DNA from: an uncultured Olsenella sp.
GTDB lineage: Bacteria > Actinomycetota > Coriobacteriia > Coriobacteriales > Atopobiaceae
DNA length: 41,694 nt
Direction: 5' to 3'
Assembly: GCA_900314495.1 (NCBI GenBank)
Contig: OMVJ01000022.1
Coordinates: forward strand, 1-41,694
Made by a program: the position numbers and the translations under genes
Part shown: piece by piece, positions 18,503 through 41,340 of the stretch
Layout of the letters: every line of letters starts with the position of its first letter
Numbering within the stretch: the stretch's first letter is position 1
The notes under the pieces: generated by a model
Seen by the model: only the letters and a program-made list of their open reading frames with translations
The model's database searches: none
Told to the model about the DNA's origin: nothing

Positions 18503-19132
18503 TCAGTACTTGGGCAGGACCAGGCGCTTGTCCACGGCCTCGACCACCAGGGCCAGCGTGCTCTCAAAGCCCGTCTTGGCCAGCAAGTTCCTCACGTGGT
18601 ACTTCACGGTGTTGAGCGAGATGCCCAGCTCGGAGGCTATCTGCTCGTAGCTGAGGCCGCGCGCCAGCTGGTGCAGGACGTCAAACTCCCGGGCCGTCAG
18701 CTCAGTGCTCCTCGCGAGGCCCAGCATGACGGGCGGGGTCTCGCGAGGCCACACCCGCTCGCCCTGCAGCGTGCGTCCCACCACGTCGAGAAGGCCGACC
18801 GCCTGCAGGTCCTTGTACCAGAAGCTGTCGCAGCCGGCGACCTGCGCCTTTGCCAAGAAGGTGTGCTCCGGCATGGAGGTCATGATGACCACCTTGGTCG
18901 AGGGGCTCTCGCGCTTGATGCGCGCGGCGGCCGCCAGCCCGGATTCGTCATCGCGGGTGCACACGTCCATGAGCACGAGGCCGATGCTGCGCCGCGCGCA
19001 GGCTACCACCGCGTTGGCCGCATTCTCCAGCGTGGCCACAACCTGGATCTGCGGCGGCTGGGCCAGGCGGCTGACCACCGCCTCCCTGGTCAGGAGCGAG
19101 TCCTCGACCACTATGGTCCTCACCACGCCCAT
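18503..19132 (-). CDS. LuxR/NarL-family response regulator
   Basis: A 209-residue regulator. The receiver domain has the acidic pair E10-D11 and the phospho-acceptor Asp56 (LVLMDVCTRDD). The C-terminal LuxR helix-turn-helix is complete (ELTAREFDVLHQLARGLSYE then LGISLNTVKYHVRNLLAKTG). The ATG at 19132 overlaps the kinase stop (TGATG) and has GGAGG upstream. It is the third gene of a coupled sensor operon. Its likely targets are the CCACCC-N4-GGGTGG sites at 21681 and 23324. Confidence 0.9.
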   Translation of the reverse strand: MGVVRTIVVEDSLLTREAVVSRLAQPPQIQVVATLENAANAVVACARRSIGLVLMDVCTRDDESGLAAAARIKRESPSTKVVIMTSMPEHTFLAKAQVAGCDSFWYKDLQAVGLLDVVGRTLQGERVWPRETPPVMLGLARSTELTAREFDVLHQLARGLSYEQIASELGISLNTVKYHVRNLLAKTGFESTLALVVEAVDKRLVLPKY

Positions 19133-20208
19133 CACCCTGCCTCCGGGATTCTCACGGCCAGCAGCACGCCCTTGTCCAGGTGCAGCTCGAGTACGGCGCC
19201 CTCGCCTTGGATCCTGCGCCTCAGGTCGGCCAGGCCAGCGCCCTCCGTCAACGCCAGGGGAGTGGCTCCGGCCTTGGCATCGTCGCCGTCGTCCCAGATG
19301 TGCGCCACAGTCCACCCGCCCTCGCGCTCGCAACTCACGGTCAGGACCGTGGCGTGGGCGTGCCGAGCCGCGTTGCTCAGGGCCTCCCGGGCGGTGGCGA
19401 GTACCAGCGACCTCGCGACCTTATCGGTGGGAAGCGCACCCTCCCACACGATGCGGCAGCCAATAAGGGCGGCCACGTCCTCGAGCTCCGCCGTGTCGGA
19501 GGAGGCACCCTCTGCGGCCGGCTCAGCGCAGCCAAGACCCCGCAGGACCCCGTCCCACCTACTTACCAGCTCAAGGAGAAGGTTGTTCCGCTCCTGTGTG
19601 CTTGCCCCGGCCGTCACCTCCTCCAGGGCCTTGCGCGTCATGAGCAGGCATTCACCTAGGTTGCGATGCGCCTGCATGCGTGCGGCGAGGAGCTCCCGCT
19701 GGCGGCTGATGCCCTCGACGTCCTGCAGGAGCAGCTGCTGGCGGGCGTTCTGTTCGCGCAGGAGCTCGTTTGCGGCGGAGGTCTCCGCTCGCGCGCGGGC
19801 GATTGCGGTCACGTCTGCGGCCTGAATCTGCAGGTAGCTGGGTCTGCCCAACGTCTTGCAATGCGCAAACTGCCAGACGCTCCCGTCTGCGGTGGTCACC
19901 TCCAGGGTACGTGCGTTGGCACCACGCCCGTCGAGCGACCGCGAGCCGGTCAGCTCCGAGAGCTCCTGCCAGAAGGCCCTCGCGTCCAGGATGGAATGGC
20001 CGACCAGCGCGCAGGCGAGCTCGTCCATGCGGTGGTTCACCAGGATGGGCACCCCTCTCTGGCTGCCCAGGCAGATGCCGGCGGGGAGTGTGTCCACGGC
20101 GGCGCGGGTGAGGGACGCAAGGCCCGCCACCCGGGCTGGCCGTGCACAGATCCAGACCACCACGGCGCATGCCAGAGTCACGCAGGCCATGCAGGCGAGA
20201 GGGTCCAT
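19132..20208 (-). CDS. Sensor histidine kinase, NarX/DesK-like
   Basis: A 358-residue kinase. One N-terminal membrane helix (about residues 2-22) is followed by a PAS-like segment (LPAGICLGSQRGVPILVNHR) that ends in a coiled coil. The likely phospho-histidine lies in AHRNLGECLLMTRKAL, and the HATPase has EALSNAARHAHA (N box) and AHIWDDGDD. The start overlaps the stop of the membrane sensor gene (TGATG), which implies coupled translation and a stable ratio of the proteins. Confidence 0.85.
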   Translation of the reverse strand: MDPLACMACVTLACAVVVWICARPARVAGLASLTRAAVDTLPAGICLGSQRGVPILVNHRMDELACALVGHSILDARAFWQELSELTGSRSLDGRGANARTLEVTTADGSVWQFAHCKTLGRPSYLQIQAADVTAIARARAETSAANELLREQNARQQLLLQDVEGISRQRELLAARMQAHRNLGECLLMTRKALEEVTAGASTQERNNLLLELVSRWDGVLRGLGCAEPAAEGASSDTAELEDVAALIGCRIVWEGALPTDKVARSLVLATAREALSNAARHAHATVLTVSCEREGGWTVAHIWDDGDDAKAGATPLALTEGAGLADLRRRIQGEGAVLELHLDKGVLLAVRIPEAG

Positions 20209-21587
20209 CACGCACCCCCGCTCGTGTGGGGCTGGCCTGGGCCCTCCCCAGCCGACCCGCCTTCGGTAGCGAGAAGCACCTCCATGCAGGTGGCCTTGAG
20301 CTGGGTGCCCTGGGCCAGCACGCGTTCGAGCGCCTGCGCGCATTCCTCTCGGCCGATGGGATGGGTGTCGTCGCGCAGCCGCTGCCCCAGCCCGACCAGC
20401 AGGCGCTCGAGTTCTTCTCGCTGCGGGTCTATCTGCTCCTCGAGTGCCTGGTAGATGATGACGCGGCTGCGTACGCGCTCAGCCTCGCCCCGCACCTTGA
20501 GCTCCTGCGCCAGGGTGTCGCCGCGCTGGGCAAGCTCCTCGCGTGCGTCCTCCAGCTCGGCGAGGGCCCGCCGCTGCTCGCGCACGTCCTGGCTCCAGGC
20601 GCACCAGACGTCCCGCATCCGGAATGCCCTCAGCTCGATGCCCGGGCTTGTTTCCACGCATTCGCCCCGTGCCAACGCCAGGAACTCGCTCTTGCCTATG
20701 CATGGGGCGTCCGCAGAACCGGTCAGGCGAGTCCCGTTGGCGTCCAGGAGCTGCAGGGCAATCGTGGAAGCGTGCAGCACGTCCTCGTAGCCCGAGTTAG
20801 CAGGCACGAGCCCGGTGGCGATGCAGCTCTCCCACAGCAGCGCCTCAAACACAAAGACGCGGGCGAAGAACTCCACGAAGTCCGGGTCTGGCGCAAAGGA
20901 GGTGAGCAGGTAGGGCATGGCAACCGCCGCCATGCACATGCCTACGAGCAGGGTAGGCCAGGGGTTGCGGGTGGCGCCTAGCGCCCGGTTGCGGGCGACC
21001 ATGAGGCCTATGCGCGCGAGCGTGAGCGCGATGTACCAGACCGTGAGCAGGTAGGCGCCAAAGCCGGGATGGAAGAGCAGGTTGGGCTGGGGGTCTGCGA
21101 GGTCCACCACGCACATGAGGTGGAGCTGCGAGTCGCTGAGGGCAAGAAAGACCATCACCAGCACCGGCACCGCCAGCCAGCGCCAGCGGGGATCCGGTCG
21201 GTACCCGCTGCTGTGTCCCAACCCCAGCGTGCCCAGCCAGCCGAGCGGCGGGATGACCATGAGGGGGACCAGCGTGAGGTAGCCGCTCTCGCGCATGAGG
21301 ACGATGTCCTCTACCAGGATGGCATCCTGCACAAACCGAATGGTTGCCCCGGCAAACATGAGGAGCCCCTCTGCGCAGACGCATCGCCTCATGACCTGCT
21401 GTGTCATGCACCGGCGGACCGATCGTATCCATAGGCAGATGAGAAGCACGTAGGTGGCGTACATGACGTAGGGGACGAACCACCCGCCGCCGGACGTCAG
21501 CATCCACCGCCGCCAGGCCGAGACCGCCAGCAGGAGCGCCACTGCGGCGCAGGCCCATGCCATGCGTCTGCGCTGCGTCTTTCCCAT
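20208..21587 (-). CDS. Polytopic membrane sensor without kinase domain
   Basis: A 459-residue protein with seven or eight transmembrane helices in residues about 10-270, resembling the 7TM sensor part of some histidine kinases, then a PAS-like/coiled-coil region (WCAWSQDVREQRRALAELED) and a Glu/Arg-rich tail. There is no HATPase, so it cannot phosphorylate by itself. It probably senses a signal and hands it to the coupled kinase downstream. AGGAGG lies 7 nt before the ATG. The tail AHPIGREECAQALERV-like segment (DTHPIGREECAQ) may be a degenerate dimerisation domain. Confidence 0.72.
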   Translation of the reverse strand: MGKTQRRRMAWACAAVALLLAVSAWRRWMLTSGGGWFVPYVMYATYVLLICLWIRSVRRCMTQQVMRRCVCAEGLLMFAGATIRFVQDAILVEDIVLMRESGYLTLVPLMVIPPLGWLGTLGLGHSSGYRPDPRWRWLAVPVLVMVFLALSDSQLHLMCVVDLADPQPNLLFHPGFGAYLLTVWYIALTLARIGLMVARNRALGATRNPWPTLLVGMCMAAVAMPYLLTSFAPDPDFVEFFARVFVFEALLWESCIATGLVPANSGYEDVLHASTIALQLLDANGTRLTGSADAPCIGKSEFLALARGECVETSPGIELRAFRMRDVWCAWSQDVREQRRALAELEDAREELAQRGDTLAQELKVRGEAERVRSRVIIYQALEEQIDPQREELERLLVGLGQRLRDDTHPIGREECAQALERVLAQGTQLKATCMEVLLATEGGSAGEGPGQPHTSGGA

Positions 21588-22036: not shown

Positions 22037-23269
22037 CTATCCCTTGGCCATCCGCCTCCGCAGCGCCAGCCCCGCGCTCACCGCAAGGGGCATGAGGACG
22101 AGGGCCAGGATGCCGGAGGTGAGCGTGTCAAAGATGGCGCGCCCGGGGCCCTCCAGCGTGGAGGCCAGCGCCACGAGGTCCACGTGTTCCCTGGCTATGA
22201 AGGAGATAAGGGCCCCCACCAGGCTAAGCGCGAGGTCCGTTAGCGTGCCAAAGCTCAGCCACACCTGCGTCGCGGGGCCGGCCAGTGCCGCGGCGACGGG
22301 GTTCATGCTCAGGAGCGCCATGCATCCGTGCACGAGCATGGAGAAGTCCAGGGCAAAGGCATGAAAGGCCACGCAGAGCGAGGCCTGCTCCAGCAGGAAG
22401 CCCACCGCAAAGGGCACCAGCATGAGGATCGGGGACGCCTTGCCCCGCGTCAGCGCCTCTGGGGCGAAGGCCGTGATCGCCACCAGTCCTGCCAGCATGG
22501 GCAGAAAGCTCATGGGGAGCAGGGTGCTTACCAGCATGAGCCCGTAGCCGAGGGCGAGAAGGGCGCCGGCCCCAGCGAGCCACACGCCGACGTTCTTGTC
22601 GCTGCCCTTGTTGCCGGCGCGGCCGCTCGTGGTGCCCGCACGGCTGCCGATGCCCTTTGCCGCGTGGTATCCCCTCGTCACCAGCCCACCGACGACGCCC
22701 AGCCCCACCTGCAGCAGCATGATGCGCAGGGCCAGCTCAAAGCCATCGCTGGGATCGTCCGTGAACACGCAGAACCAGGTGATCACAAGGGCTATGTACA
22801 TGGCTACCATGAGAACGAAGTCGAACGTGGTGGCGTCATCGTCCAAGGTGGCAAAGGGCAGGAACAGGCCCACGATGGCAAAGCCAAGCCAGCCAAAGAG
22901 GGCCATGACCTTCCCGTCGCTCATGCCCTCGACTGTCATGATGACCCCCAGCGCCGCGACGAGGTTGCCCCATGCGTACCAGAGCACGAGCCGCATGACG
23001 GCCCTCGCGGCAATCGGGCCCAGCAGGGCGCCCAGCACCGCGGAGACCAGGAGCCCTAGGGCGATGCAGACGGCCGCGGCAAAGAAGGCGTAGCCCGCCA
23101 TGAGCATGCCGCCGATTACGAGGCCCGCGCAGAGGAGCAGCACGAGACCGCCGCCAAGGTCGTCGAAAGGACCCGAGGGATAGGCCACGTAGCCCCCAAA
23201 GCCGTCGGGCACGATCTCTATCCAGTCGCCGCCGAGCCCCACCCAGCCGTCGTCAAGGTCAACCCACAT
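22037..23269 (-). CDS. Polytopic membrane protein of unknown function
   Basis: A 410-residue protein with about ten transmembrane helices. The first 38 residues are unusual: acidic, Trp/Gly-rich and soluble-looking (MWVDLDDGWVGLGGDWIEIV). A short Gly/Ser/Lys loop near the middle splits it in two halves (GIGSRAGTTSGRAGNKGSDK). I recognise no family. AAGGGAG precedes the ATG at 23269; an upstream ATG at 23296 lacks a site. It is divergent from the decayed radical-SAM locus and shares that intergenic palindrome. A transport, immunity or sensing role is a guess only. Confidence 0.7.
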   Translation of the reverse strand: MWVDLDDGWVGLGGDWIEIVPDGFGGYVAYPSGPFDDLGGGLVLLLCAGLVIGGMLMAGYAFFAAAVCIALGLLVSAVLGALLGPIAARAVMRLVLWYAWGNLVAALGVIMTVEGMSDGKVMALFGWLGFAIVGLFLPFATLDDDATTFDFVLMVAMYIALVITWFCVFTDDPSDGFELALRIMLLQVGLGVVGGLVTRGYHAAKGIGSRAGTTSGRAGNKGSDKNVGVWLAGAGALLALGYGLMLVSTLLPMSFLPMLAGLVAITAFAPEALTRGKASPILMLVPFAVGFLLEQASLCVAFHAFALDFSMLVHGCMALLSMNPVAAALAGPATQVWLSFGTLTDLALSLVGALISFIAREHVDLVALASTLEGPGRAIFDTLTSGILALVLMPLAVSAGLALRRRMAKG

Positions 23270-23323
23270 GCCTGCTCCCTTCGTCGGGTTGATCAATTAC
23301 ACCACGCACCGCACGGATCCGCC

Positions 23324-23339
23324 CCACCCGCAGGGGTGG
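23324..23339. promoter_or_regulatory. CCACCC-N4-GGGTGG palindrome, site 2
   Basis: CCACCCGCAGGGGTGG differs from site 1 only at two central positions. It is placed 55 nt before the divergent membrane-protein start and 57 nt before the RiPP-type start. Both sites are followed 19-22 nt later by a TTSAAT motif on the plus strand. Confidence 0.55.
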
Positions 23340-23395
23340 GGTGCGGCCCGCCCCGTGCTTGAATGGCCGTAACGGAACCCGAAGGGAGGTGCGCC

Positions 23396-24113
23396 ATGGA
23401 GTACACAAAGCCCCAGGTAGTGGCATGGACCTCTATCGCGGCATCCTGGACCAGGGCGACCAGATGGGGCTTCCCGCCCTCACGCTCTCGGGCGGCGAGC
23501 CCATGGCGCACCCGGACTTCTGTCGCATGCTCGACATGACGCGCGAGCACGACCTCTCGGTCCGCATCCTCTCCAACCTGACCCTCCTGGACGAGAGGAT
23601 CCTCGCCTCCATCAGGGCAGCGCGCATCGCAAACATCAAGGTTTCGCTCTACAGCATGGATCCCCAGGTGCATGACGCCATCACCCAGCTGCCAGGATCG
23701 CATGCCCGCACCGTGGCTGCCGCGTGCTGGAGGCCGACCTGGCGGCGGAGCGCGCCAGGGACATCAGCTGTGACCCCGTGTGCGGCGTCTGCGTGTCGTC
23801 GCTGTCCGTGGTCTCCGACGGCACCGTCTACCCCTGCGCCGGCTGGCAGAGCAGGGTGCTGGGTAACCTGCGGGAGCAGAGCCTGCGCCATATATGGGAG
23901 GAGTCGCCCGAGGTGCTCTACCTGCGCAGACTCCGCATGCGCGACTTTCCCCAATGTCTGGGCTGCCAGAACAAGCCCTTCTGTGCCATGTGCATGGTGA
24001 GAAACGCCAATGAGAGTCCCACGGGCAACCCGCTGGAGGTGAACCCCCACTTCTGCCGCATCGCCGCGCTCAACCGCGAGGTGGTGGAGGGCTGGCTGCG
24101 CGGACAGAGGTGA
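23396..24113 (+). pseudogene. Decayed RiPP locus: precursor start joined to a radical-SAM/SPASM enzyme
   Basis: After an AAGGGAGGT ribosome site the ATG at 23396 opens MEYTKPQVVAW, which looks like the leader of a small ribosomal peptide precursor. It then runs out of frame into a radical-SAM barrel lacking its N-terminal CX3CX2C part (LDQGDQMGLPALTLSGGEP then ILSNLTLLDERILASI). Near 23720 a second break shifts to the SPASM domain, which is intact: SCDPVCGVC, DGTVYPCAGW, CLGCQNKPFCAMC and a final FCRIAALN, ending at 24113. Two deletions thus removed most of the precursor, the SAM-cluster motif and part of the middle. The enzyme cannot work. Confidence 0.75.
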
Positions 24114-24237: not shown

Positions 24238-24380
24238 GACACTAGGGGACGTTTCCATTTTGTCTCATTAAAAAATGATGTGGTCGGGCCTGTTGCGGTC
24301 CGCCCTTTCTTTATGAGACAAAAGGGAAACGTCCCCTTGTCACCCCTCTTGTCACCCCCCTTGTCATCCCCTCTTGTCAC
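24238..24380. repeat. Repeat family B, inverted pair with tandem tail
   Basis: Two copies of the GGGAAACGTCCCC core face each other (24238-24268 and 24313-24343), making a stem of about 30 bp with a 44-nt loop. A tail of four tandem units of CTTGTCAYCCC type follows (24337-24380). Confidence 0.75.
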
Positions 24381-24445: not shown

Positions 24446-27400
24446 TTATTCTATGGGGCTCACTATGACGGAGAGACCCGCATCTTCCTGGACGTTGCTC
24501 ACCGTGACCGTACTGGTATTGGTGGCTTCGTCGTTGGCGATGGCGCTGGGGTCGAGCTCGACATCGCCTATCCAGCCTCCGGTGATCTCGTAGCCCTCGT
24601 TCAGGACGTAGGTCACCGTGGCATCGGACCCGACCTTGTACAAAGCGCTATTTCCGTCGCTGCTCACGAGGCCTTCGCCAGCGAACGTGACTTCTTGCAT
24701 AGTGCTATCCCAATACACGCTAATCCTACGGGCGTCCTTTGGCCGGATCGCGAGGTTGATGCTGTAGCCCGTTCTATCGCCATCCGTGTTGCTGACGGTG
24801 AGGACGCCGTTTTCGTACGAGCAGCTGGCATTGTAGACCTCGACCGAGACCTCCAGGCCTTCTTTCTCCTCCGAGATGTTGAATCTCGCAGTCTGCCCGA
24901 CCTTCACGTAGAGGGTTGGCCAACCGCCTGTGTACTCAACAAGGCCATTGCCGTCGGCAGCGGTGATCAGCAGGCCTTCCGCTTCGCCACCATCCAATCC
25001 GACATTCACGCTGACGTATCCGGCCCGCTCGGTCGTGATAGAGACACTCGTGTCTTCCTGGACGTTGCTCACCGTGAAGGTATAAGAGTTGGTCGATTCG
25101 TCGTACACGGCAGCGCTGGTGTCGAGCTCGACATCGCCTATCCAACCGCCCTTGACGCCGAAGCCCTCGTCCAGGGTAAAGGTCACCGTGGCATCGGACC
25201 CGACCTTGTATACGGCAGTTTCCCCTTCGGAGCCGCCGCTCACGAGGCCCTCGCCGCCAAAGCTGATCCTGGCATGCTCGCCATACGCAGAGACCTCGCG
25301 CGTGCCCTTCGGCCTCACCTCGATATTTACGGTGGCCCCCGCATCTTTGCTCAGGCCGCTCACGGTAAGGACGCCGTCCGCGTAGGAGAAAATGTCGTCC
25401 GCCTCGCCGGATTCGACCCGCCAGCTCGTGTCCTTGATCTCGGTTTCACCACCGGTATCGATATTGAATTTCGCGACCGTCCCGAGCTTCACGTAATAGG
25501 AAAGCGAGCCGTCATCATATCCGCTGTCGTTGACGGCCAAGGCGTTGCTGTCGGCGGCAGTGATCCTCACGTTGTCCGCGCCGGCACCCCATACGTCAAT
25601 GATTACGGGAGCATACCCGGCCCGCCCGACCGAAACTTCGATCTCTGCGTCCTCGCTCACCTTGCCGAGCTTGAAGGTATAGGAATTGGCGGCGCTGTCG
25701 TATGCGGCATCTGAGAGACCGAACTCCTGCCGATCGCCGGTCTCGCTACCGCTTATCTGAACTTTGGTCACCTCGTAGCCTTGGTCCAGGGTATATGTCA
25801 CCGTGGCCTCAGCACCTTTTTTGTACTTCGCCCGCTTTCCACTCACAGTGTCATTCGACTGTTCGAGCGCCCCGGCGAAATTCGCCTCTTTTACATGAGA
25901 CGTGCTGCGGCTGTCGAGGATGCGCGTGCCCTGCTGGCGTACGTTGCAGACAACCTGCATATCACCAGTCACGTTCTCCAGCGGGATAAGGTAGTTGCCG
26001 GACCCATCCTTTTGGAGCTCGGAGATATCCAGCTCCTCTCTGATGCCCGCAGGCCAGTTGCCCACTGTGACTGACTTCAGTTCATATCCCGCCTTGAGCG
26101 AGAGGGTCAGCACGGGAGAGCTGCCTTTCTGAGCGTAGTAGCCCCGGACGCCATCAGATATGGGAATGAGGGTGCTCGGTACCGTGATGCTTCCGGCATC
26201 CTCTGCCTGGGACGGACCCACGGTATCGCAGTCGAAGTATGCAAAGATTTCCGCATAGTCGACCGGCTTGTAAGATATGCTCACGTACGTATCGCCAACC
26301 GGGAGCGCATCGAGCGTGATGCTGTTGTTGCTAAGGGAAATGTTTTGCGCGTCCCCGCCGCTGTAAGTGACGATGCCATTGGCAAAGGTATAGGGCTTGC
26401 CCCAGGCGCTCTTTGGCGTGAAGGTGATCGTCGGCCTGTCACCCTTCTTGAAGGTGTAGGTCACGCTGCCGTCCTCGTTTTGCTTGGCCGTCACACCACC
26501 CGTCACCTTGGCGGTCGCTCCCACCACTTCTAGCGTGAGCGAAGCCTCACCCGCTTTGTGGAATTCGAACCTCGCGGCCACGTCTTCGGTGATGTTCTTG
26601 AATTCAAGGGTGTATGTAGAGGGGTTCGTGATTGTCTTGCTCTCGCCTTCAACATAGATGCCGGAGATCTCGTATCCTTTGTTGGGCGTCACGGTAAACG
26701 AAGCAGAGCTATTTTCTTTGACCTCGTACGTATATAGCACGCCGTACCAGTTGTTTTCATCCGTTGCGATGAGCTTTGCGTTGGACCCGACGGTCGGCGT
26801 GATCTTTCCGTTTTTGCTGTCGGTGAAAATCCGGATTGTCTTGTAGCCCGGGTGGGTAAGTTCGAAGACCACGCTGCTGCCGTCTTTTGTGAGCGAGTTT
26901 GCTTCAAAGGTGTACGTGAAGGTGGATTTGCCGATCGCCTCGTCACGCTCTTCGCCGTCCACAGTCACACGCGAGATCACGTATCCCTTGGGAGCCGTGA
27001 TGGTCAGCTTGTGCGCACTGCTGATCGCGACGTTGTACGAGACTACACCGTCATCGTCTACTGTTGTCTTCACAGCTCCGGTCATGGATGAGCACGTAGC
27101 GGCGGTGATGCTCTGATTGCTGGCGTTGACCGCAACCTTAACTTGCGCCTGGGCATCGTCCACCCACTGGGCATAAAGCGTCACTTTTTTCCCGGCAAAA
27201 CGGGCGGTGTCGGTCCAGTCTTGGTCGATGTAGCTTGTGCCCGACCCGTCAGCCCTGGTGTTCCAACCGACGAAGCGCTTGCCGGCGTAAGTGAAGGTGT
27301 TCTTGGGCAGCTGCACGGATTGTGAGTTCTTGTAGGTCTTGCTCGCCATGGTGCCCTTGCCGCCGTTGGCATTGAAGGAGACCGTGTAGGTGGTCTCGGC

Positions 27401-28024
27401 CGGCTTCCCCGGCTTCGTCGGCTCAGTTGGCTTTGTGGGCTCGGTTGGCTTTGTGGGCTCGGTTGGCTTTGTGGGTTGCGTGGGCTTTTTGCTCGTGTCC
27501 ACGCCGTACCAGCCTATGCCCTCGGCGCGCCAGCCGACGGAGACCAGGCTGTCGTTCTCGGACTTGCTGGTGGTGTAGTTGTGGGAGCCGGAGTTGTTCC
27601 TCGGCGCGCTCGGGTCGACGTTCGGGTTGAACTGGCGGTACAGGGGCACGCCCTTGGCATCGTCCGAGTACCAGCCGATTCCTTCGTCCTTCCAGCCCAC
27701 GGAGACCAGGTGGTCGCGCTCCTCCTTGGACGTCGTGTAGTGGTGGTCGGTCCCGGAGTACAGGCGGTACACGGGGGTGTTGGACTTCGTGGGTGCCGTC
27801 CAGCCGATGCCCTCGTAGTTCCAGCCAGCCCGAGCCACGCTGTCGCGCTCCGCGGCATTGGCCGTGTAGAAGTGCTCGCCGCTGTTGGGGTTGTACAGGC
27901 GGTACATGGTGTTGGTGCCCGCCGCCAGCGCCGGAGCCGGCGCCAGCGCGCACACCGATAGCACCGCCACCAGGGCTACCACAGCTGCCCTCAGGCGTCG
28001 CAAGCCCCCGCACTTACCTCGCAT
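24446..28024 (-). CDS. Large secreted repeat protein with DUF5648 and InlB-type repeats
   Basis: A 1192-residue exported protein. Signal peptide: residues 1-35 ending in an ALAA cleavage site. Three repeats of about 50 residues follow (YRLYNPNSGEHFYTAN then WNYEGIGW), as in DUF5648 domains found in lectin-like or muramidase proteins. Next comes a Pro/Thr linker with tandem KPTEPT units, then one Listeria-Bacteroides (InlB B-type) repeat (VSFNANGGKGTMASKTY ... YAQW). The rest is beta-rich, with at least three degenerate repeats of about 180 residues built on KVGSDATVTYVLNEGYEITG and TVSNVQEDA. No LPXTG or membrane anchor is seen; it ends in VSPIE. The start at 28024 has GAGGAG. Confidence 0.82.
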   Translation of the reverse strand: MRGKCGGLRRLRAAVVALVAVLSVCALAPAPALAAGTNTMYRLYNPNSGEHFYTANAAERDSVARAGWNYEGIGWTAPTKSNTPVYRLYSGTDHHYTTSKEERDHLVSVGWKDEGIGWYSDDAKGVPLYRQFNPNVDPSAPRNNSGSHNYTTSKSENDSLVSVGWRAEGIGWYGVDTSKKPTQPTKPTEPTKPTEPTKPTEPTKPGKPAETTYTVSFNANGGKGTMASKTYKNSQSVQLPKNTFTYAGKRFVGWNTRADGSGTSYIDQDWTDTARFAGKKVTLYAQWVDDAQAQVKVAVNASNQSITAATCSSMTGAVKTTVDDDGVVSYNVAISSAHKLTITAPKGYVISRVTVDGEERDEAIGKSTFTYTFEANSLTKDGSSVVFELTHPGYKTIRIFTDSKNGKITPTVGSNAKLIATDENNWYGVLYTYEVKENSSASFTVTPNKGYEISGIYVEGESKTITNPSTYTLEFKNITEDVAARFEFHKAGEASLTLEVVGATAKVTGGVTAKQNEDGSVTYTFKKGDRPTITFTPKSAWGKPYTFANGIVTYSGGDAQNISLSNNSITLDALPVGDTYVSISYKPVDYAEIFAYFDCDTVGPSQAEDAGSITVPSTLIPISDGVRGYYAQKGSSPVLTLSLKAGYELKSVTVGNWPAGIREELDISELQKDGSGNYLIPLENVTGDMQVVCNVRQQGTRILDSRSTSHVKEANFAGALEQSNDTVSGKRAKYKKGAEATVTYTLDQGYEVTKVQISGSETGDRQEFGLSDAAYDSAANSYTFKLGKVSEDAEIEVSVGRAGYAPVIIDVWGAGADNVRITAADSNALAVNDSGYDDGSLSYYVKLGTVAKFNIDTGGETEIKDTSWRVESGEADDIFSYADGVLTVSGLSKDAGATVNIEVRPKGTREVSAYGEHARISFGGEGLVSGGSEGETAVYKVGSDATVTFTLDEGFGVKGGWIGDVELDTSAAVYDESTNSYTFTVSNVQEDTSVSITTERAGYVSVNVGLDGGEAEGLLITAADGNGLVEYTGGWPTLYVKVGQTARFNISEEKEGLEVSVEVYNASCSYENGVLTVSNTDGDRTGYSINLAIRPKDARRISVYWDSTMQEVTFAGEGLVSSDGNSALYKVGSDATVTYVLNEGYEITGGWIGDVELDPSAIANDEATNTSTVTVSNVQEDAGLSVIVSPIE

Positions 28025-28217
28025 ATCGTGCTCCTCTCTTCGCCGTGCCGAAATTGGCATGGGTCGCTTAATCTCAAAGGTTACAAAGGTTACGTCCCGA
28101 TGCCCGCCGCAATGGGCAAGGACTGAGCGGTTGGCAGAAATCACCCCCCCCAGCGGCATGGGACGTAATCTGCAGGAAATAAGGATGGTGCGGATCCGAG
28201 ATGACGCGCGACGGAGG
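28025..28217. other. Upstream region of the surface-protein gene
   Basis: About 190 nt without a gene, presumably holding the promoter and leader. I cannot mark a convincing -35/-10 pair. It ends at repeat family B. Confidence 0.4.
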
Positions 28218-28221
28218 GGAA

Positions 28222-28306
28222 ATGAGACAAAAGGGAAACGTCCCCTCCTTGTCACATCTCCTAGTGTCAGATATGACAAAAGGGAAACGTCCCCTTTTGA
28301 CTCACC
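28222..28306. repeat. Repeat family B, two direct copies
   Basis: Two copies of the GACAAAAGGGAAACGTCCCC unit (28224-28254 and 28274-28300) in the same orientation, separated by a CTAGTGTCAG spacer. They lie just past the flavodoxin stop codon on its minus strand, where a terminator would sit. Confidence 0.75.
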
Positions 28307-29672: not shown

Positions 29673-29727
29673 TGACAATAAGGGATGACAATAGGGAAAC
29701 GTCCCCTATTGTCATCCCTTATTGTCA
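29673..29727. repeat. Repeat family B, perfect 24-bp hairpin
   Basis: Perfect inverted arms of 24 nt (starting TGACAATAAGGGATGACAAT) with a 7-nt loop containing the AAACGTC core. It begins two nt after the stop codon of the minus-strand membrane protein gene and probably acts as its terminator. Confidence 0.85.
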
Positions 29728-39004: not shown

Positions 39005-40094
39005 GTGGTGGCAAATAGGAATTCGCGTCGCAGGTGGCCATGGGTCCTGCTGGTAGTGGCGGTGGTTGTGCTGGTGGTCGCGCCCGCGGCCATCACCTTT
39101 TACGTGCACATGGAAAGCTACGCCCGTCCGCCGGCATTTCGCGATGCTGCGGACATCACTTACGCGGACGTTGATGCAGCGAAGTACCCCCCGGCAGGAG
39201 GTCAGCTTCCCCAGCGGCGGCGTGACGCTGGCTGGCTACGTGTACCCTGCGCAGAACACCGGCGCGCCCGTTGGCCTGGCCATCATCGTGCACGGCCTCA
39301 ACAGCAATGCCGACAAGATGCTGCCCCTCATCACCTACTACCAGGAGCGGGGCTGGACCTGCTTCGCCTTCGACGGAACCGGCGCGGGCGCAAGCGAGGG
39401 AGACTCCGTGCGCGGCCTCAACCAGCAGCGACTGGACCTGGAGGCGGCCATCAGCTACGTTGCCGGCCAGCCCGAGCTTGCCAGCCTGCACTGCGTGCTC
39501 GTGGGCCACAGCATGGGAGGGCACGCAGTGACCAGCGCCTTTGCCGACGGTATAGACCAGCAGCTGGACATTCGGGCGGTCGTGGTCTTCTCGGCTTTCA
39601 ATTCCGGCGTCGAGACAACCGACGTGCTCTTCGACGAGTACCTAGGTCCAGCGGCAACCTTGCTCAAGCCTTGGGTCTGGGTTGCCTACCATACGACTTT
39701 CGGCCCGGCGGCTGACGTGACGGCGGTTGACGGCATCAACGCCACAAGCACGCCCTTCATGTGCGTCTACGGGACTGAGGACGAGGCCGTGCCTGCTTGG
39801 ATGTCGGGCATTCCCGCGCACGCGAGCGAGATCACCAACACCAACGTGGAGCTGGTGGAAGTGGAGGAGAAGTACCGCAACACCCACTCCACCCTGTGGC
39901 TCACGGCCGATAGCGCGCAGTACGCCCTAGAGGTCTGGGACAAACGTGATGCGCTGCTGAATGCCCTAGACGGAGACCCCACGAACGACCCATTCTACCT
40001 GCAGTTTATTGAAGGCGTGGACAAAGATCGCATGTCGCGGACGGACCCCGACCTCATGCAGCGGGTGGAGTCCTTCTGCCGCGATCGCGTGTGA
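39005..40094 (+). CDS. Membrane-anchored alpha/beta hydrolase, frameshifted
   Basis: A signal-anchor hydrolase of about 360 residues. The GTG at 39005 (AGGGGAT site) opens a short Arg-rich N-terminus and one transmembrane helix (WPWVLLVVAVVVLVVAPAAI), then FRDAADITYADVDAAKYP. At the C run 39187-39192 the frame shifts: five C instead of six would join KYP to RQEVSFPSGGVTLAGYVYPA. The catalytic part is intact: oxyanion IIVHGLNSN, FDGTGAGAS, nucleophile elbow VGHSMGGH, acid in YGTEDEAVP, His in NTHSTLW. The TGA stop is the first codon of a family-B repeat. I list the full span; the shift may be a real mutation or an error. Confidence 0.8.
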
Positions 40095-40134
40095 CAATAG
40101 GGAATGACAAAAGGGAAACGTCCCCTATTGACAC
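40090..40134. repeat. Repeat family B at the hydrolase stop
   Basis: TGTGACAATAGGGAATGACA then AAAGGGAAACGTCCCC and CTATTGACACA. The hydrolase stop codon TGA is part of the repeat. Confidence 0.8.
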
Positions 40135-40152: not shown

Positions 40153-41340
40153 ATGGATGCAAACACGCACGACATCGCCCGCGACGCCTTCATGCTCGCC
40201 GGCGCGTTCGCACGGCAGGGCTACGACTGGTGGTGGCACTCCTTCACGGCCCACCACGCGGTAACGGGCCAGGAGCGTCAGTTCTTCGTGGAGTTCTTCC
40301 TGGTGAACCCGGCGCTTGCCCACGAGGGCGAGCAGGGTAAGCGGGGCCTGCCTGTCTTGGGCCAGCTTCCGGAAAACAAGGTCGCTGGCGTGCGCCCCTC
40401 CTACCTCATGGTCAAGGCTGGCACGTGGGGCAAGGACGCCCGTCAGCTGCACCGCTTTTTCTCGTGGGACGACGTTGAGGTGGGTGCGGGCGCGCCCTTC
40501 TACGTGGCGGTGGACGACTGCATCTGCTGCGAGACGGACCTTATCGGCCGCGTGGAGGTGACGCCGGAGCAGGCCAGCGCCCACCCGGAGTGGATGAGCG
40601 ACGCGGGCAGCATGCTGTGGGACCTTCGCCTGCAGAAGGATATCGCTTTCAACGTGGGGTACGGCGCCTCTGCCCCCATGCGCGCAGCGGAGGCCTTCCA
40701 GATGTACTGGCACGCGGAGGGCATGAAGACCCGCTTCAGCGGCACGGTGGCGCTGGACGGCCAGACCTACGAGGTGGAGCCGGACACGAGCTACGGCTAC
40801 GCCGACAAGAACTGGGGCAGCGACTTCACGTCCCCTTGGGTGTGGCTGGCATCGTCCCGCCTGACCAGCATGAACACGGGCAAGCGGCTGGAGGGGAGCG
40901 CCTTCGACATTGGTGGCGGCAGGCCCAAGGTGGGCCCCGTCGCGCTGGACCGCAAGCTCCTGGGTGCCATGGTGTACGAGGGGCAAACCTACGAGTTCAA
41001 CTTCTCCAAGCCGTGGACTGGCTCGCAGACCAGGTTCGACTGCGGCGAGGCGGGCGACCAGATTGTTTGGCATGTGGAGCAGAGCACCTTTGACGCGTGC
41101 ATGATCACCGACGTTACCTGCAAGAAGGAGGACATGCTCCTCATTAACTACGAGGCGCCCGACGGCGCCAAGCGCTACAGCCGCCTGTGGAACGGCGGCA
41201 ACGGCGTCGGTACCGTGCGGCTGTACCAGAAGTCGCGCGACGGGCTTACGCTGGTGGACCACATTCGTGCGGAAAGCGTTGGCTGCGAGTGGGGCGAGTA
41301 CGACCTGTCAAAAGGGGACGTTTCCCTATTGACACGCTAG
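40153..41340 (+). CDS. Tocopherol cyclase-like protein
   Basis: A 395-residue soluble protein resembling the tocopherol-cyclase-like (PF14249) family, which also occurs in gut anaerobes that make no tocopherol. Characteristic stretches are GYDWWWHSFTAHHAVTGQER, RFSGTVALDGQTYEVEPDTS, YGYADKNWGSDF and WVWLASSRL. In this family the protein is a lipocalin-like barrel pair; the bacterial substrate is unknown. GGAGGAG precedes the ATG. The last ten residues (SKGDVSLLTR) are encoded by a family-B repeat, so the native end is probably lost. Confidence 0.78.
   Translation: MDANTHDIARDAFMLAGAFARQGYDWWWHSFTAHHAVTGQERQFFVEFFLVNPALAHEGEQGKRGLPVLGQLPENKVAGVRPSYLMVKAGTWGKDARQLHRFFSWDDVEVGAGAPFYVAVDDCICCETDLIGRVEVTPEQASAHPEWMSDAGSMLWDLRLQKDIAFNVGYGASAPMRAAEAFQMYWHAEGMKTRFSGTVALDGQTYEVEPDTSYGYADKNWGSDFTSPWVWLASSRLTSMNTGKRLEGSAFDIGGGRPKVGPVALDRKLLGAMVYEGQTYEFNFSKPWTGSQTRFDCGEAGDQIVWHVEQSTFDACMITDVTCKKEDMLLINYEAPDGAKRYSRLWNGGNGVGTVRLYQKSRDGLTLVDHIRAESVGCEWGEYDLSKGDVSLLTR
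41306..41334. repeat. Repeat family B shared by two convergent gene ends
   Basis: A reversed copy (TGTCAAAAGGGGACGTTTCC and CTATTGACA). It supplies the last codons of the tocopherol-cyclase-like gene (plus strand) and the TAG stop of the Sir2-type gene (minus strand), whose ends overlap by 15 nt here. Confidence 0.8.

Follow-up and report, generated by a model that had tools for sequence, protein, structure and literature searches.

The remnant and its deletion junctions

The window, i.e. the whole stretch of 41,694 nucleotides that was analysed, is contig C37 of a draft assembly of an uncultured Olsenella sp. (G000; 2.80 Mb, 65 contigs). Positions 23396-24113 are a pseudogene made by two deletions. 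An ATG at 23396 opens the remnant of a precursor leader, MEYTKPQVVA (23396..23425, plus strand), which runs on into unrelated, out-of-frame sequence with a stop after 47 codons; the remaining part of the 37-aa precursor, including all three of its cysteines, is deleted. The 5' region of the precursor gene (23322..23395, plus strand), with GAAGGGAGGTGCGCC directly before the ATG, is conserved and shares 84% identity with the intact copy on contig C26 of the same assembly and 85% with those of two other genomes, G007 and G351. Downstream lie two fragments of a 479-codon radical-SAM/SPASM enzyme, both in frames other than that of MEYTKPQVVA. The radical-SAM fragment (23428..23721, plus strand) aligns without gaps to codons 173-270 (89% nucleotide identity, codon alignment), and the SPASM C-terminal fragment (23718..24113, plus strand; 91% nucleotide identity) extends from codon 351 to the stop, 23718-24103 aligning to codons 351-478. 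The latter scores above the cut-off of the Pfam SPASM model (E 1e-10) and retains all seven cluster cysteines (C372, C390, C430, C433, C439, C442 and C463, numbering of the intact enzyme), as a first-pass annotation of the window had noted.

Alignment to C26 yields three collinear blocks, 23322-23424 (84%), 23408-23721 (89%) and 23716-24103 (91%), and makes both deletion ends visible. The two enzyme matches to C26 (89% identity over 315 nt, E 5e-116; 91% identity over 388 nt, E 4e-155) are far too strong to be due to chance. At junction 1 (23425..23428) the distance from the precursor ATG to enzyme codon 173 measures 771 bp in C26 but 32 bp in the window, so that 739 bp net have been lost, and with them the core of the precursor, the stretch between the two genes, the PqqD-like RRE and the CX3CX2C motif. 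Junction 2 (23716..23722) lacks 244 bp, i.e. codons ~271-350, and shifts the frame; neither loss is divisible by three. The annotation's two structural claims, a precursor-like start joined by deletion to the middle of a radical-SAM/SPASM enzyme and a second deletion within the enzyme, are thus borne out, with the addition that the fusion, at codon ~173, is out of frame. No in-frame stops are found within the two enzyme fragments; the lesions are the two junctions. With two frameshifts and without the precursor core, the RRE, the CX3CX2C motif and codons 271-350, the window copy contains neither a complete precursor nor a complete enzyme.

Short homologies occur at both junctions, i.e. AAGCCCCAGG near the precursor side and AAGACCCAGG on the enzyme side of junction 1, and GC-rich short repeats of the GC[GC]GCC / GC[TCG]GCC type flanking junction 2. 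The remnant very probably arose by two short-homology deletions, one removing the precursor core, the RRE and the catalytic cluster motif, and then one removing an internal piece of the enzyme. The deletions are known from this one assembly, a 65-contig draft in which C26 and C37 resemble each other, a situation that can mislead short-read assemblers, and the organism might therefore carry an intact cassette at the site of the remnant. We regard such an assembly artefact as very improbable, as both junctions coincide with short homologies typical of real deletions. Moreover, substitutions specific to the window are spread over the whole of the retained fragments, which differ from C26 by 9-11%, so that the sequence is no chimera of the two copies.

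Intact copies of the cassette

A search of the window's own assembly with the C-terminal fragment identified a full-length relative on C26, where a 37-aa ORF, MEYAKPQVVAESKESKTYAASCLQPSTKPNSCCEMTY (L002 3085-3231, minus strand), is followed by a 479-aa radical-SAM/SPASM enzyme. Two MAGs of rumen Coriobacteriaceae from other genera, G007 (RUG13628; precursor at L013 9703-9849) and G351 (RUG11916), carry intact cassettes as well. The precursor proteins of C26 and G007 are identical, the genes having two synonymous differences only; among the intact Coriobacteriaceae versions there is a single, identical 37-aa precursor, MEYAKPQVVAESKESKTYAASCLQPSTKPNSCCEMTY. In this search of relatives, which the annotation had proposed, a MEY-x-KPQVVA precursor was found directly 5' of a SPASM enzyme with the same C-terminus, in the same order and next to the same LuxR and kinase genes.

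As only ten leader codons remain in the window, MEYTKPQVVA might belong to an unrelated short gene that lies next to the enzyme remnant by accident, which the annotation had named as the finding that would overturn its reading. The relatives contradict this. In C26, G007 and G351 alike this leader stands before the enzyme, together with conserved 5' sequence, and the leader motif precedes the enzyme in 33 of 40 loci across phyla as well as at both plasmid loci described below, making the probability of an accidental neighbourhood practically negligible.

C26 (L003, L017) is collinear, in reversed orientation, with positions 9844-36067 of the window in many blocks of 80-92% nucleotide identity. 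By tetranucleotide composition C26 and the window are closer to each other and to the local region of G007 and G351 than to sampled G000 contigs. C26 may be a true second copy that goes back to an old segmental duplication, or it may stem from a related organism and have been binned in; either way an intact version exists.

Window-only changes, defined as positions at which the window departs from a state shared by C26, G007 and G351, comprise 26 synonymous and 7 non-synonymous substitutions over 226 codons. Together with the lack of in-frame stops this ratio argues that most of the divergence accumulated under selection and that inactivation was recent. The annotation's claim of recent decay is thus supported by the substitution pattern, a test that gives no date for the deletions themselves.

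The precursor-enzyme cassettes of G007 and G351 are 99.5% identical over 1763 bp, whereas the flanking blocks share 84-88% identity; the simplest reading of this contrast in sequence identity is a recent transfer of the cassette between genera. G007 also contains a second decayed SPASM C-terminus (L013 1732-1809), which adjoins the response-regulator gene and indicates that enzyme copies were lost at the locus more than once.

Neighbouring genes and a repeat-bounded exchange site

On the minus strand lie genes for a 419-aa membrane protein of unknown family (22037..23296), divergent from the cassette and syntenic in C26, G007 and G351, a 459-aa putative membrane sensor without a Pfam match (20208..21587), a histidine-kinase-like protein with a weak HATPase_c_2 match and an uncertain ORF start (19132..20343), and a NarL/LuxR-type response regulator composed of receiver and GerE domains (18503..19126), which shares 89-91% amino acid identity with its copies in C26, G007 and G351. 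All of these genes, and a methyltransferase gene near the remnant, have counterparts in C26, G007 and G351. Close copies of the regulator number one each in G007 and G351 and two in the window's assembly. On the other side of the remnant, positions 24446-28279 (minus strand) encode a repetitive protein of 1277 aa, apparently secreted, whose internal repeats lie at 24471-24679 and 25041-25255.

A functional link between the two-component genes and the cassette is possible, with synteny as its sole support. In its most far-reaching form the neighbouring two-component system would sense the mature peptide, i.e. the locus would encode modified-peptide signalling in a pheromone circuit. The regulator, kinase and membrane sensor do occupy the same place by the cassette in C26 and G007, and in G351 across a contig break, where the contig with the regulators breaks off within the ATPase gene adjoining the cassette. 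However, sensor and regulator genes are absent next to the cassette at the family loci examined outside the Coriobacteriaceae, so that the linkage is not conserved across the family. Moreover, G013 possesses sensor and regulator homologues with no family enzyme found there, the sensor gene beside the intact cassette of G007 is split into two frames (C19:5661-6973), and the regulator ORFs of the window are intact despite the loss of the cassette. We thus consider a pheromone circuit rather improbable. Of the annotation's expectation that relatives carry a complete system with the same LuxR cassette, the first part holds for C26, G007 and G351, whereas the association with LuxR is positional and confined to a few Coriobacteriaceae.

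A hairpin repeat, CCCACCCGCAGGGGTGGG, is located 5' of the precursor at 23323..23340 as a single copy in the window. In C26 (L003 10966-10983 and 12576-12593) and G007 (C19:9990 and 11659) it occurs twice, ~1.6-1.7 kb apart, on either side of an ATPase gene, and in G351 once at each of two matching contig positions. The ATPases between the repeats of C26 and G007 are only 42% identical, indicating that the content of this repeat-bounded site has been exchanged, and the left edge of the 99.5%-identical block of G007 and G351 coincides with a CCCACCCGCAGGGGTGGG repeat. With its one repeat and no ATPase the window has either lost the ATPase or never gained it. An RNA element or attenuator at the hairpin is unsupported (folding z-score -1.07, no credible Rfam match), and a scan of the region for sigma-70 promoters found none.

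Another repeated element, GGGGACGTTTCC, is distributed over positions 24241-24340, 28234-28294, 29673-29727, 40089-40133 and 41314-41325 of the window. It is present in 7 exact copies, with 11 matches at ≤2 mismatches versus 3.65 expected, is REP- or MITE-like, and forms in one spot a 35-nt imperfect inverted repeat 128 bp 3' of the pseudogene.

Distribution of the cassette family

When one genome per species was scanned with an alignment of three enzyme sequences as query, ~40 full-length relatives emerged in Coriobacteriaceae, Atopobiaceae, Treponema and other Spirochaetota, Bacteroidota, Bacillota, Pseudomonadota, Verrucomicrobiota and Acidobacteriota. A Cys-containing M-x-[YF]-x-K-P ORF lies upstream of the enzyme gene at 33 of 40 loci, but downstream at 0 of 37 and never upstream on the antisense strand; the pairing of leader and enzyme proposed for the window thus recurs across phyla. 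Radical_SAM and SPASM domains were detected in 29 of 29 enzymes each and PqqD in 28 of 29, the PqqD scores of the Coriobacteriaceae members (22.1 and 20.9) being slightly below the Pfam gathering score of 23.4. The cysteines of the CX3CX2C motif, C152, C156 and C159, are invariant in the family.

The precursors comprise 32-51 amino acids with an M-x-Y-x-K-P leader and contain 3-5 cysteines in those from the family scan and 2 in those encoded on plasmids. Three types can be distinguished, with which the enzyme tree groups, i.e. YAAGCPA....C..CERTK in Spirochaetota and Bacteroidota, Y[AV]ASC......CC in Coriobacteriaceae and two Ruminococcaceae, whose enzymes are sisters (support 96/92), and AKCGDGPCGRPC in Bacillota, Atopobiaceae and Anaerobiospirillum. 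Related enzymes (38-39.5% identity) are also encoded on conjugative plasmids of E. coli (CP099011.1; cassette at L116 6809-8437) and Photobacterium (L117 6807-8428), on both of which the precursor is an identical 38-aa peptide, MSYSKPTVLAKSSTYMAQCRPNSKPSGRPCNPPGPSGR, and an annotated recombinase gene is located just upstream. A phage or virus origin of the enzyme was rejected, as no match was found in phage records or viral contigs.

Relation to known maturases

The branch formed by the family is far from every NCBIfam equivalog. None of the equivalog cut-offs of the named maturases (AlbA, SkfB, StsB, PapB, PqqE, mycofactocin and others) was reached, the best score being that of ScmE (102.8 bits versus a cut-off of 400) and the others shown being far below theirs as well. 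Seven precursors had no match among the NCBIfam models up to E 1 or E 10, short peptides giving HMMs little signal, and the C26/G007 precursor had none in Pfam. In the openly accessible literature we found no description of the family, also with the exact strings of two precursor types. The intact cassette family is unnamed in the curated profile libraries used, but may already be contained, without a name, in published radical-SAM RiPP atlases.

The modelled G007 enzyme (pLDDT 88.7) has its nearest folds, by Foldseek, in CteB (E 1.9e-17) and SuiB (E 4.4e-17), whereas the closest PDB sequence match to the family profile is SkfB (E 1.7e-26); identity to every solved enzyme is 14-18%. SkfB, CteB and SuiB are RiPP maturases that all combine an RRE and a radical-SAM domain with an auxiliary-cluster domain (PMC6231123).

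With the SKF sactipeptide system of SkfB (PDB 6efn) the family shares the N-terminal RRE, the radical-SAM core, the C-terminal auxiliary Fe-S domain and a short Cys-containing precursor encoded directly upstream. In contrast to SkfB, whose Twitch domain holds one auxiliary cluster (PMC6231123), the family has the full seven-Cys SPASM set; moreover, its cassette lacks skf-like exporter and protease genes, and it reaches 47.8 bits against the NCBIfam model rSAM_skfB versus a cut-off of 300. CteB, the thioether maturase of SCIFF (PDB 5wgg), is the top fold match and likewise combines RRE, radical-SAM and SPASM domains with a Cys-containing peptide. The identity is, however, 18% over the fold alignment. 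In appearance the precursors of the family are presumably unlike that of SCIFF. PapB-type ranthipeptide maturases (NF047865), too, are radical-SAM/SPASM enzymes acting on Cys-containing precursors, but with a score of 62 bits versus a cut-off of 340 the family is not a member of this group. SuiB (PDB 5v1q-5v1t), finally, is likewise a radical-SAM/SPASM enzyme of a RiPP system; it possesses an RRE and resembles the family in overall fold. Its product streptide carries a Lys-Trp crosslink, whereas the family precursors have conserved cysteines and those of the C26 type contain no Trp. Streptide operons are quorum-regulated; Rgg/SHP-RaS-RiPPs are reviewed in PMC13361665. The regulators by the Coriobacteriaceae cassette are two-component regulators and not of the Rgg type.

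Proposed mechanism of the intact cassette

The remnant is very probably what is left of a two-gene radical-SAM RiPP cassette that was inactivated recently, and it yields no functional product. The pseudogene structure, the intact homologues, the pairing of precursor and enzyme and the domain set are seen in the sequences, whereas leader binding, thioether chemistry, secretion and biological role of the intact form are inferred. In the simplest mechanism the leader of the 37-aa precursor (MEYAKPQVVA...) would dock on the PqqD-like RRE of the adjacent enzyme, an interaction that we assume; the leader of SuiB, for comparison, is not bound via its RRE (PMC6231123). The enzyme would then cleave SAM at the CX3CX2C cluster, and the resulting deoxyadenosyl radical would abstract a hydrogen from a core residue. 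The SPASM clusters may help to crosslink the core cysteines (AASCLQPSTKPNSCC) to neighbouring residues, most likely as thioethers. As no protease or exporter genes are present in the cassette, leader removal and export would depend on genes outside it.

The products of intact cassettes are most likely thioether RiPPs, i.e. sacti- or ranthipeptide-like. The core peptide contains cysteines, as in these classes, every precursor found has them, fixed per subfamily (AAGC, ASC and KCGDGPCGRPC), and the nearest solved enzymes, SkfB by sequence and CteB by fold, form thioethers. Nevertheless, SuiB, which makes a Lys-Trp carbon-carbon bond, is nearly as close in fold as CteB, and both the 14-18% identity to solved enzymes and the distance from the NCBIfam equivalogs leave room for another modification (C-C, C-O or epimerisation), in which case the peptide would be neither a sacti- nor a ranthipeptide; we consider this unlikely, though a serious competitor of the thioether reading. 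As precursor and enzyme together comprise only ~1.7 kb, the chemistry is directly testable.

Possible mobility of the cassette and its accessory genes

Although the remnant itself is without function, it led to a family of radical-SAM peptide cassettes that are intact and very small. The plasmid copies and the 99.5%-identical cassette in two genera with flanks of 84-88% identity suggest that the cassette moves as a unit. In the window such cassettes can be seen in the course of being gained and lost. We tentatively propose, as one possible view, that the intact parent represents one branch of a class of minimal two-gene thioether-peptide cassettes that is undescribed and horizontally mobile. 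This class would extend across gut Spirochaetota, Bacteroidota, Bacillota and Actinomycetota and onto enterobacterial conjugative plasmids, its accessory genes would be swappable (an amidohydrolase, or a UvrA-like protein and a second radical-SAM enzyme), and in rumen Coriobacteriaceae it would sit next to a dedicated two-component system at an exchange site bounded by hairpin repeats.

Conserved neighbours within the family vary with the precursor type and are an Amidohydro_2 protein in 20 loci and a UvrA-like ATPase together with a second radical-SAM protein in 8 loci, neither set being found next to the Coriobacteriaceae-type enzyme. The AKCGDGPCGRPC-type precursors lie in an operon with the UvrA-like ATPase and the second radical-SAM protein (L057, L058, L059, L061, L062, L064, L066 and L068), which is unusual company for a RiPP.
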